Source: Spirochaetales bacterium | Lineage (GTDB): Bacteria > Spirochaetota > Spirochaetia > Treponematales > Treponemataceae | DNA length: 64,000 bases | Reading direction: 5' to 3' | NCBI GenBank assembly: GCA_029098225.1 | Contig: JAQXNX010000014.1 | Span: 124,001-188,000 of the forward strand | Shown: positions 34,989 to 46,901 of the stretch, piece after piece | How the letters are laid out: each line of letters starts with the position of its first letter | Position numbering within the stretch: position 1 is the first letter of the stretch | Notes under the pieces: model-generated | What the model saw: only the letters and a program-made list of their open reading frames with translations | Told to the model about the DNA's origin: nothing | The model's database searches: none | Position numbers and translations under genes: made by a program

Positions 34989-35025
34989 TATATGTAATAA
35001 TTCGGCAGGTATAAAAATCTGCGCT

Positions 35026-35070
35026 GCACGTTAATGCGTGCTTACCGAGTTTTCGCTATGCGAAAACTCG
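35026..35070 (-). repeat. Two-hairpin palindromic element (HP1-GTAA-HP2), copy 1, just after groEL
   Basis: Minus: CGAGTTTTCGC-ata-GCGAAAACTCG GTAA GCACG-cattaa-CGTGC. Confidence 0.75.
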
Positions 35071-35076
35071 CTTGTG

Positions 35077-42103: not shown

Positions 42104-45064
42104 CTATTTGATTCTGTAAGTTTCCGGTGCTCCCAGATAAGACTTTGGCATAGGCTTGTTTGCTTCGTGAATCACGATTTTTTCAAGCACTATATTTGGA
42201 GTTACCGGGCTCAGTTTTACAGAGTTCAAGCCTGCATGGCAGTCTGCATAAACAGTTGCAATGCGGATATTATTCGGAATATCTTCTCCCCAAGGGAACT
42301 GATTATCACCAACTGCAAACTTTTCAGGATCAACTGCATCCTTCAAAAGTCTCTGACCGTTTATTTCTGCTATAAACTGAAGTTTATTATCTTTATAAGC
42401 CGGATTTGAAGGATTGATGTAGAAATCAAAAGCCATAACTCCGCCGGTCTTTTCTACAAAATCTTCAGACAAAGCAAATGCATACTCAACAAAAGGAGCG
42501 TCCTTAGCATCAGGAGCAAAAGTTCTGATTGTATCAGAAGCCTTTACAGCACCCAGAGTTTTTCCATATCCTTCAAGCAAATCAAAACCGCTCGAACGCA
42601 CAAAATGAGGAGCTTCCATACTGATATAGTTTGTTGTCTGAACAAAGGTTCCGGCCGGGAAGTTAGTATCTACAGAAGCAGCATCCACATGAACCTTAAC
42701 GAGAATGCGGGCTCCGTGACCATCGTTGCCTTCAATTGTGATTATATCACTTTTGTCACTTTCTTTTGCAAGCTTTTCACGGTCAATTGTAAGAAGAATT
42801 GTGTCAATATTAGCAAGCTTATCACCAAGGCCTTCTTCATCCTTTATGATTTTGCCGTTAAGCCAGCGCTTTGAATCATCCTTGTCATACTTTCCAAGAG
42901 TTACTGTATATTCACAGCCAGGTTCATTGCAGTTTGCAAGCTTTATGCGGGCTTCATTGCAATCAGGATTTTTGAAAGCGTCAAGATAAAGGTCGCGTAT
43001 AGTCCAGTCCTGACCGGTGGTTGTAAAGTCTGCACCATCAATCCAGAAAACATTACGCTTTTTGCGGGTAGGTTCAACATAAGCATAAACCGGATATGAG
43101 TTAGCAGCTTCACACCAGTTATTAAAGCCAAAGTGCTCAGACCAGGCCATTCCAAAGAAGCGGCCACCACCTACCTTATCACATTCATCAACAAGCTCTT
43201 TATCCGCCTTTACACACTCGCGAACCTTGTCCGCATACACATTAGCGACAAGGGCGTTGTGACTTGCAAACCAGCGGTTCTTTCCACTGTACAGCTGCAT
43301 AAGTTCAACATTCATTGTTCCCACAACAGGAAGATAAACCTGGCTGAAGAAGCCAGCCTCCTGCTCTGCCGGAACAAGCGCACGAAGAGCCTTTGTGCGC
43401 TCAATCAAAGCCTTTGCATGGCTGATAATATAATCAGCTTCACCAAAGTTTACCGGATGGAAGGTGTCCGGCTTAAGGGCTTCTGTTCGGCACATACTTG
43501 TGATTTTATTTGATTCATAGACAATATCAGAAAGCTCTTTTACCTGCTCAGCAGTAAAATATGGGAAAGCAGATGCAAACCACTGGTCACAATAAGCCTT
43601 AGTATCAGAATTATATTTTTCATAATCGTAAGCAAGATTAAGGAAGTAAGAAAGCGGGAACTCGTTTGTAAGAATATCTCCGACATTTACAATCCAGAGG
43701 TCGCGGATTCCAAACTCGTAGGCAGCAGACATCTGTTCACGGGCCTTTGGAAGATAATTGGTATTGAGCCACTCGTAGCTGTAAGGCCATCCGTGGTAAT
43801 CAAAATGGTAATACATACCGTAGCCGCCCTTGTGAGAGCGCATGTGTTCAGTTGGAACAGTACGAAGGTTTCCGTGGTTATCGTCACAGAGCATGAGGGT
43901 TACGCCCTCAAGCTCAGGATCATCCATAAGACCCTTTGTATGCTTATCGCCGTAGAAGTATGGCTCAACCTCTTTGTATAGGGCAAGCATACGAGGAACT
44001 TTATCGAGATCCTGATTTACATTTTCACGGATAAGACGGTTCTGAGTTTTAAGAACGTCGCGCAAAAGGTTTATGTTGTCGGCCAGAGTAGCGTTCTGCA
44101 TGATGGCTGTATCAGCTTCGCCGCGCATACCAACAGTGATTACATTTTCAAACTTGCCGTTACGTTTTAAGCCGTCTTCCCAGAACTTTGTAATTCCCTC
44201 GCGGTTTTTCCAGAAGTTCCAGGCATCACCGTAAATAGAACCAGGGCCGCGCACATAGCGGTATTCCTCTCCGTTACGGCAACATGGCTCATGGTGGCTG
44301 GCTCCCATAACTACGCCAAGCTCGTCAGCAAGTTCTGCATTTGCAAGGCCAGGGCCGTCCAGACTGAACTGAGCAGACCACATTGCAGGCCAGAGATAGT
44401 TTCCCTTGAGGCGGAGAAGGAGCTCAAAAACGTGCTCGTACATTTTAGCATTAAAGCCGCCAAAATTGTGGGTAGTAAAGTTGCCGTAAGCAGGCCATTC
44501 ATCGTTGATAAAGAAACCACGGAAACGTACAGAAGGCTCTTTAGTTACTGTTACGCCTTCTTCGAGTTCTACAGTGTCGCGCTTTGCCGGCAAAACTCCG
44601 CACCAGTCAACGAGAGGAGAAACTCCCATAAGTTCAGAAAGATGGAAAAGACCGTAAATTGTACCGCGCTTGTCGCTTCCGATTATGATGATTTTGTCTG
44701 AGCGGACAGCAAAAATATAGCACTCGCGTTTACCCCTGATTTTAGAAACATCTGCTGTCAGACCATTATCTGAAGCAAGCTTTTCTGCAAGAGGCGCCTG
44801 AGATATAGTGGCAAAGTAGACGGTGTTTTGTGGCGAGTTTGCGCCAGCAAACTCGGTAAGGTCGCTCTGCGACCGACTTTCGACAGGCTCAACCACCGCA
44901 CTCATAGCAGGTTTCTTACCAGTCACCCGCTCCACATCAAGACATACTTTATCTGCAATTTTCTTTACACCAGAAAACTCAGCTTCATCACAAAAAAATT
45001 CATTTTTCCCATCAATTTTGAACATAAGATTTTTCCTTACTATTGGTCTCGCATTAATGCGCAA
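42104..45064 (-). CDS. Glycoside hydrolase family 115-like (alpha-glucuronidase)
   Basis: GFFINDEWPAYGNFTTHNFGGFNAKMYEHVFELLLRLKGNYLWPAMWSAQF; GASHHEPCCRNGEEY. Confidence 0.85.
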   Translation of the reverse strand: MRINARPIVRKNLMFKIDGKNEFFCDEAEFSGVKKIADKVCLDVERVTGKKPAMSAVVEPVESRSQSDLTEFAGANSPQNTVYFATISQAPLAEKLASDNGLTADVSKIRGKRECYIFAVRSDKIIIIGSDKRGTIYGLFHLSELMGVSPLVDWCGVLPAKRDTVELEEGVTVTKEPSVRFRGFFINDEWPAYGNFTTHNFGGFNAKMYEHVFELLLRLKGNYLWPAMWSAQFSLDGPGLANAELADELGVVMGASHHEPCCRNGEEYRYVRGPGSIYGDAWNFWKNREGITKFWEDGLKRNGKFENVITVGMRGEADTAIMQNATLADNINLLRDVLKTQNRLIRENVNQDLDKVPRMLALYKEVEPYFYGDKHTKGLMDDPELEGVTLMLCDDNHGNLRTVPTEHMRSHKGGYGMYYHFDYHGWPYSYEWLNTNYLPKAREQMSAAYEFGIRDLWIVNVGDILTNEFPLSYFLNLAYDYEKYNSDTKAYCDQWFASAFPYFTAEQVKELSDIVYESNKITSMCRTEALKPDTFHPVNFGEADYIISHAKALIERTKALRALVPAEQEAGFFSQVYLPVVGTMNVELMQLYSGKNRWFASHNALVANVYADKVRECVKADKELVDECDKVGGGRFFGMAWSEHFGFNNWCEAANSYPVYAYVEPTRKKRNVFWIDGADFTTTGQDWTIRDLYLDAFKNPDCNEARIKLANCNEPGCEYTVTLGKYDKDDSKRWLNGKIIKDEEGLGDKLANIDTILLTIDREKLAKESDKSDIITIEGNDGHGARILVKVHVDAASVDTNFPAGTFVQTTNYISMEAPHFVRSSGFDLLEGYGKTLGAVKASDTIRTFAPDAKDAPFVEYAFALSEDFVEKTGGVMAFDFYINPSNPAYKDNKLQFIAEINGQRLLKDAVDPEKFAVGDNQFPWGEDIPNNIRIATVYADCHAGLNSVKLSPVTPNIVLEKIVIHEANKPMPKSYLGAPETYRIK
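44834..44874 (+). repeat. Two-hairpin palindromic element (HP1-GTAA-HP2), copy 2, inside the GH115 ORF
   Basis: CGAGTTTGC-gcca-GCAAACTCG GTAA GGTCGC-tct-GCGACC, then CGACTTTCGACAGGCTCAACC. Confidence 0.75.
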
Positions 45065-45248: not shown

Positions 45249-46709
45249 ATGGTACCAGTATTAATTAAAGATTTACTGTCTTCTAAGCCAGATGGGCAGA
45301 AGGTTACAGTATGTGGTTGGGTGCGCACTGTCCGCGACTCAAAGGGTCTTGTTTTTATTCAGGTGAACGATGGAAGCTGCTTTGCAAATATCCAGCTCAC
45401 CTTTGACCGCAATAATCCTTCTAATAATGCAAATGTAAATGAAATCGAAGCTGAACTCAAAAAGCTCAACACTGGAGCAAGTCTCCGCGCTGAAGGTCTT
45501 CTTATTGAATCTCCTGCAAGCGGTCAGGCTGTAGAAGTAACTCTCGAAAGCCTCAAGTGTCTTGGCGAATCAAATCCGGATGAATATCCTTTGCAGAAAA
45601 ACAAGATGTCTATGGAATATCTGCGCGACGTTGCACACCTTCGTGCCCGCACTAACACTTTTGGTGCAGTTTACCGTGTTCGTAACCAGATGGCTTTTGC
45701 AGTACACAGCTTCTTCCAGGAGCGTGGCTTCCAGTATATTAATGCGCCGGAAATCACCTGCAGCGACTGTGAAGGTGCCGGCGAGATGTTCCAGGTAACA
45801 ACCCTCAGCATGGAAAAGATTGCTGAGATGGCTGTAAAAGCCGGAAACGGCGGTATGAAGCCGGAAGACGCTTACAAGATTGTAGACTATAAAAAGGACT
45901 TCTTTGGAAAGAAGGCCAGCCTCACCGTTAGTGGTCAGCTGGAAGCAGAAACTCTCGCTACAGCCTTGAGCCGTGTTTACACCTTCGGCCCTACTTTCCG
46001 TGCAGAAAACTCTAACACTCCACGCCACCTCGCTGAGTTCTGGATGATTGAACCTGAAATGGCTTTCTTCGACCTGGACGACGATATGGACATTCAGGAA
46101 GACTTTGTAAAATATCTTTTGAACTGGGCTTTAACAAAGTGCCGCAGTGACCTCGAGTTCTTTGACAAGAGAATCCAGCCAGGACTTATCGAAAGTCTTG
46201 AAAAGGTTGCAAAGGCTAAGTTCACAAGAATCAGCTATACTCAGGCAATTGAAGACCTTGAAAAGGCAGCTGCAAACGGCGCTAAGTTTGAATTCAAGCC
46301 TTACTGGGGCTGCGACATTGCAACTGAGCACGAGCGCTATCTTACAGAAAAGATTTACAACGGTCCGGTTATGGTTTACAACTATCCAAAGGAAATCAAG
46401 TCTTTCTATATGAAGCAGAATGACGACGGCAAGACTGTAAAGGCCGTAGACGTTCTTGTTCCTGGAATCGGCGAGCTTATCGGCGGTTCTGAACGCGAAG
46501 AAAACTACGACAAGCTTCTTGCTGCCTGCAAAGAGCGCAACATGGATATGTCAAACTACGAATGGTATCTCGACCTTCGCCGCTTTGGTACAGTTCCACA
46601 CTCAGGCTTCGGCTTAGGCTTTGAACGCCTCATGCGCTACGTAACAGGTATGGACAATATAAGGGATGTTATTCCTTATCCTAGAGCTCCTAAGCTGGCG
46701 GATTTTTAA
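45249..46709 (+). CDS. asnS: Asparaginyl-tRNA synthetase
   Basis: VCGWVRTVRDSKGLVFIQVNDGS; GSEREENYDKL; FGLGFERLMRYVTGMDNIRDVIPYPRAPKLADF; SD GGAGG before ATG 45249. Confidence 0.97.
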   Translation: MVPVLIKDLLSSKPDGQKVTVCGWVRTVRDSKGLVFIQVNDGSCFANIQLTFDRNNPSNNANVNEIEAELKKLNTGASLRAEGLLIESPASGQAVEVTLESLKCLGESNPDEYPLQKNKMSMEYLRDVAHLRARTNTFGAVYRVRNQMAFAVHSFFQERGFQYINAPEITCSDCEGAGEMFQVTTLSMEKIAEMAVKAGNGGMKPEDAYKIVDYKKDFFGKKASLTVSGQLEAETLATALSRVYTFGPTFRAENSNTPRHLAEFWMIEPEMAFFDLDDDMDIQEDFVKYLLNWALTKCRSDLEFFDKRIQPGLIESLEKVAKAKFTRISYTQAIEDLEKAAANGAKFEFKPYWGCDIATEHERYLTEKIYNGPVMVYNYPKEIKSFYMKQNDDGKTVKAVDVLVPGIGELIGGSEREENYDKLLAACKERNMDMSNYEWYLDLRRFGTVPHSGFGLGFERLMRYVTGMDNIRDVIPYPRAPKLADF

Positions 46710-46713
46710 TATG

Positions 46714-46753
46714 CAAGTTTCCGATAGGAAACTTGGTAAGCACGCTTGCGTGC
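46714..46753 (+). repeat. Two-hairpin palindromic element (HP1-GTAA-HP2), copy 3, between duplicated asnS 3' ends
   Basis: CAAGTTTCC-gata-GGAAACTTG GTAA GCACGC-tt-GCGTGC. Confidence 0.75.
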
Positions 46754-46758
46754 GACTT

Positions 46759-46797
46759 ATCCCTTACCCACGCGCTCCAAAACTGGCAGACTTCTAA
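46759..46797 (+). pseudogene. Second copy of the asnS 3' end (IPYPRAPKLADF*)
   Basis: ATCCCTTACCCACGCGCTCCAAAACTGGCAGACTTCTAA encodes the same 12 residues and stop as 46671-46709 with only synonymous differences. Confidence 0.85.
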
Positions 46798-46901
46798 GCT
46801 GCAGGGGCGTTACGGGGGCGAGCCCCCGTTAGAAGGGGTAGCGGAAAACGCCGCAGGCGGTTGAAGCGAGGGGAAGACTTGCCCCTCCTTCTATAATAAA
46901 T

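Follow-up and report, generated by a model that had tools for sequence, protein, structure and literature searches.

In-frame palindromic DNA in a GH115 gene of a spirochaete and its probable origin from two nested hairpin repeats

Palindromic repeats that lie in frame in protein genes have been described as Rickettsia palindromic elements (RPEs), which PMC2229807 describes as Rickettsia-specific, 105-146 bp long and built as a single palindrome that carries terminal inverted repeats (Ogata et al. 2000, 2002). That source also cites protein-coding palindromes in Wolbachia and Methanocaldococcus jannaschii (Ogata 2005; Suyama 2005). The GTAG and CGTC REP superfamilies are hairpin repeats of 20-40 bp, present in many copies and sometimes intragenic (Di Nocera et al. 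2013, PMC3733652). CGTC-type repeats have been reported in Spirochaetes, without a known transposase, and intragenic REPs occur in several phyla, where loops and linkers were proposed to tolerate them (PMC3733652). Palindromic repeats in Spirochaetes are therefore not new as such, and the in-frame phenomenon is already known from these intragenic REPs and, according to PMC2229807, from Rickettsia, Wolbachia and M. jannaschii.

Here we analysed a GH115 gene in a stretch of 64,000 nt (the window) of contig JAQXNX010000014.1 from Spirochaetales bacterium GCA_029098225.1. The original prediction held that this gene contains one palindromic element inserted in frame, in parallel with RPEs. The parallel stands for the way the segment works: it belongs to a repeat family, the ORF is intact, orthologs are free of it, it falls in a loop, and other in-frame cases exist. 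As with RPEs, short palindromic repeats occur both intergenically and in frame in otherwise conserved proteins, are open in the coding phase and are tolerated, and the GH115 segment is itself such a palindromic repeat. It is not literally an RPE, however. By description, a palindrome of 105-146 bp is replaced here by two nested families of unrelated sequence, the 27-nt element A and the 45-nt element B. The REP superfamilies differ too, since A lacks a constant, unpaired tag of either the GTAG or the CGTC type and B consists of two adjacent hairpins with conserved GTC, TTACC and GC and freely covarying stems. The palindromes of Wolbachia and M. jannaschii, as described, represent the same phenomenon in other hosts. 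Literature searches with the A and B strings and their peptides returned no relevant paper, and a search on Treponema palindromes found none. Both repeat families and their host group look new, and the covarying double-hairpin design of B appears undescribed in the literature searchable here.

The GH115 gene and its variable linker

The GH115 (alpha-glucuronidase family) gene at 42104..45025 on the minus strand is intact and encodes 973 amino acids from the ATG at 45025, with Pfam GH115 and GH115_C domains. Its closest solved structure is 6nps (E = 1.4e-285), and the genome is Treponema-like, the named close relatives by GH115 being Treponema. On the coding strand from 44906 to 44821, the segment reads AGTGCGGTGGTTGAGCCTGTCGAAA, GTCGGTCGCAGAGCGACCTTACCGAGTTTGCTGGCGCAAACTCGC and CACAAAACACCG in succession. 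Its left part belongs to a REP-like repeat, its central 45 nt form two hairpins with TTACC between them, and the encoded stretch includes SQSDLTEFAGANSPQ. The hairpin arms are CGAGTTTGC/GCAAACTCG and GGTCGC/GCGACC, the latter with an expectation of 0.01 in the window at up to two mismatches. An in-frame palindromic insertion in an intact GH115 gene was thus found at the predicted place, with orthologs that lack the segment.

The stretch GVKKI..GSDKRGTIYG spans 107 residues here compared with 82-102 in 58 ortholog loci, a set in which some species were entered twice. In four near-relative loci (L032-L035), the linker is shorter by exactly 51 nt, a difference made up of B (45 nt) and 6 further nt. 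Hypervariable throughout the orthologs, the linker is here 17 codons longer than in the near relatives. Element B was present in none of the 58 loci, and neither was the whole segment; the possibility that orthologs carry the same segment as diverged, non-palindromic DNA was examined directly and did not hold. In an AlphaFold2 model of the protein (mean pLDDT 85.6, pTM 0.88), residues 46-63, the bulk of the insert, had pLDDT below 50 and lay between the strands 40-44 and 68-73, which agrees with the expected loop location. The model suggests that the insert lengthens a loop, probably a disordered one, which connects two beta strands in the N-terminal domain. Directly 5' of the start codon of the same GH115 gene in another species (G019), a B copy was observed together with CGTC-like palindromes (L039, 1398-1486).

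Two repeat families, A and B

Element A has the palindromic form CGGTGGTT-TCGACARGCTCA-ACCACCG. Its left arm and core, CGGTGGTTGAGCCTGTCGAAA, occupy 44878..44898 (minus strand) and are read as (A)VVEPVE, and the full 27-nt palindrome is present in the same linker of the Treponema bryantii XBD1002 ortholog. The hexamer ACACCG at 44821..44826 (minus strand) is probably the remnant of the right arm, separated from the rest of A by B and 6 nt, as judged from the XBD1002 ortholog (ACCACCGTATATTTTG versus ACACCGTCTACTTTG). The core TTTCGACAGGCTCA occurred at 22 places in the genome with at most one mismatch and at none with the reversed pattern, a few of the one-mismatch places resembling unrelated gene sequence; full copies have the form (C)GGTGGTTTCGACARGCTCAACCACC(G). 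The string GGTTTCGACARGCTCAACC, at up to one mismatch, was found in 57 of 99 congeneric genomes (control, 0), with 17 copies in this genome and 134 in the genome G015. The GH115 linker of G015 is that of T. bryantii XBD1002 (L035 and L070 agree), from which we infer that the two are one species. Exact copies of A at eight places of an Arthrobacter plasmid show that A reaches beyond spirochaetes. No constant unpaired tetranucleotide (GTAG tag) was seen by eye next to A across the 22 places, and neither A nor B has the terminal CGTC tag with a single 8-9 bp stem that defines CGTC REPs.

Element B, at 44833..44877 on the minus strand, is 45 nt long, nested in A, and reads GTC-GGTCGC.AGA.GCGACC-TTACC-GAGTTTGC.TGGC.GCAAACTC-GC. 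A covariance model trained on 21 copies taken from other genomes, and not on the GH115 copy, recovered this copy with 56.5 bits (E = 1.5e-10), together with two further copies in the window. One of these, at 46713..46756 (minus strand), lies directly 3' of the asnS stop, with one copy of the coding sequence for the asnS C-terminus on either side. The other, at 35023..35071 (plus strand), lies directly 3' of the stop of a gene with a groEL-like C-terminus, by which end alone the gene was named. The idea of a single palindromic element was accordingly kept for the in-frame palindromic DNA and abandoned for its unity, since the 45-nt B (44833-44877) sits inside a separate A (44878-44898 plus the probable remnant 44821-44826).

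B copies from many Treponema genomes share the frame GTC-stem1-TTACC-GAGTTT..AAACTC-GC and vary in stem sequence. Stem 1 occurs as GGTCGC/GCGACC, GCACGC/GCGTGC, GCAACC/GGTTGC, GTTCGC/GCGAAC and others, and the inner stem 2 as GC/GC, TC/GA, TAC/GTA and others. Among 34 distinct sequences, 97.2% of cells paired, compared with 22-58% when the partners were slid, and 55 cells had changed on both sides compared with 14.7 in shuffles; these counts come from a model-fitted alignment, which leans towards structure to an extent that the slide control covers only in part. That alignment was chosen because MAFFT placed stem 1 wrongly in some rows. The B pattern was found in 44 of 99 congeneric genomes (control, 0). 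Across the phylum it turned up in 27 of 395 genomes, every one of them in the same bacterial family. A search with the exact stem of the first hairpin returned the GH115 copy only; it missed the others because stem sequence varies and only pairing is kept, which makes the conserved linker TTACCGAG a useful handle. No Rfam family matched above its gathering score, the best being ftsZ-DE with 20.8 bits against the 72.2 needed. B is flanked by GTC and GC and has neither terminal inverted repeats nor a GTAG tag. Compared with MITEs, which have terminal inverted repeats and target-site duplications, some B copies show flanking duplicates of 12-50 bp; at the GH115 copy, a search for flanking direct repeats gave none.

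Elsewhere, B often lies a few nucleotides 3' of the stop codons of housekeeping genes, antisense to the gene, and at several loci it stands between two copies of a gene end, which differ in codons but not in the peptide they encode. In the window, 46668-46798 comprises asnS, B and a second copy of the last asnS codons (IPYPRAPKLADF and stop), with only synonymous differences in that peptide. The end of pta (TVAVTALQA and stop) is duplicated around B in two species, and duplicated gene ends flanking B were also observed in related genomes at pta, groEL and other genes. An asnS end beside GH115 was not found in the relatives examined. In about five loci, B adjoins CGTC-like palindromes or repeats; a preference for palindromic DNA may thus explain why it is nested in A here. 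In L007 (1501-1631; C33:220606-220721 of this genome), two B copies each follow a copy of the 5' part of the adjacent tRNA-like gene, whose start (TTTTTTACGGGCAATAGCGCAGTTGGTAGCG) occurs three times in all. In the window, a cluster of GC-rich inverted repeats (GGGGGCGAGCCCCC and more) at 46805-46880, 3' of the asnS duplicate, resembles GC-rich repeats near A copies (L022-L024).

Both elements occur in frame in other proteins. A was found in this genome in ABC exporters, HsdR-type restriction subunits, GltB and an FGE-sulfatase protein, and in G015 in a NUDIX protein, an M28 peptidase, a UvrD-like helicase and an ABC-F linker; B was found in relatives in an ABC exporter, MnmE and a flavodoxin-like protein. 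Where orthologs were found, the relatives lack A and the sites are variable loops. In 12 of 13 cases accepted as validated, A is read in the phase giving VVSTGSTT or VVEPVETT, with five of the six frames open; this bias has p of about 1e-4 if open frames are equally likely, and is a lead, as the list was picked by hand after the data had been seen. The UvrD-like helicase of G015 (C6; L225, around 1509) contains, besides A, another odd in-frame stretch, SLPLARTSSLATPSAGDTPATPPSTSPLPS, which may be a further repeat family.

Origin of the segment and mobility of the repeats

We conclude that the GH115 segment is very probably a composite of two hairpin-forming repeats that arrived successively in a tolerant, hypervariable linker. 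Palindrome A would have entered the linker first and the double hairpin B would then have inserted into A, after which the longer loop would have been tolerated, presumably with near-neutral effect on the enzyme. The frame survived because A and B are free of stops in the phase caught and because the net gain of 51 nt relative to near relatives equals 17 codons; the loop would be tolerated because the region is free to vary. Best supported is that mobile hairpin repeats arrive in loops neutrally or nearly so and are then filtered by frame survival and perhaps by peptide character.

The history of A in the linker leaves one live alternative. XBD1002 is the only GH115 ortholog with A, as an exact copy in the same linker and in opposite orientation, so that the peptide reads SAVVEPVE... 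here and STVVSTGSTTV there. A could instead have been ancestral in this linker within the T. bryantii clade, one lineage having inverted it and the others having lost it by decay, with B alone being recent. The linkers of our sequence, L032, L033, L034 and XBD1002 are indeed equally long once the 51 nt are discounted, and L032 and L076 have an A-like stretch at the same offset, albeit with 4-5 mismatches, a level of best match common by chance in this set; it is on these weak stretches that the alternative lives. Against it, A-like sequence is absent from B25, the sister of XBD1002, and from L061, the sister of our sequence, and the orientation of A differs between the two carriers. The tree places the carriers apart and requires two changes, for which one gain with losses would also serve. 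We therefore consider an ancestral A rather unlikely, and two separate A hits on one tolerant linker the simplest reading. At the position of A in both GH115 (B discounted) and HsdR, relatives without A have a stretch of about the same length; A may therefore replace loop sequence, or overwrite it, and not simply insert.

Selection for the insert beyond mere tolerance, with hairpins regulating the mRNA (pausing, stability) or the loop aiding the enzyme, seems quite improbable. The stem structure is kept across B copies, and B often lies just 3' of housekeeping-gene stops, as a regulatory role might lead one to expect; but this conservation belongs to the B family and was seen mostly in copies outside genes. 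The GH115 stretch folded only modestly more strongly than shuffles (z = -2.05 as DNA, -1.17 as RNA), and the prediction gave the loop very low confidence, as it does for disordered stretches. Ordinary drift of a linker that is hypervariable in all orthologs, with chance likeness to repeats, is ruled out for practical purposes by the repeat counts: base composition predicts about 2e-7 occurrences of the exact A 21-mer in the genome, B matches a covarying family at E of about 1e-10, and both patterns were absent from controls.

As to how A and B move, RAYT was considered as mobiliser of A and rejected, as most of the genomes richest in A are without PF01797 (Y1/RAYT transposase). This domain was absent from G015 despite 134 A copies and from our genome, which is 95.8% complete, so that a gene may have been missed there. 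Since no transposase was found for either element, we infer that they move either as single-stranded DNA in a structured form or through copying in the course of recombination. Much more tentatively, and with the odds against it, B could be a structured element that is mobile in Treponema and its family and spreads by an undescribed route, settling just 3' of the stops of conserved genes with a gene-end piece of 20-50 bp from another species, and occasionally landing in frame in proteins or in other palindromic repeats.

These results add Treponema, with two families independent of each other, to the hosts of protein-coding palindromic repeats and suggest that the same GH115 linker was hit twice in different lineages. 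The apparent phase bias of surviving A insertions (VVSTGSTT/VVEPVETT) makes selection on repeat-encoded peptides testable. The covarying stems of B and its duplicated gene ends offer a concrete starting point towards a mechanism of mobility that is as yet uncharacterised.
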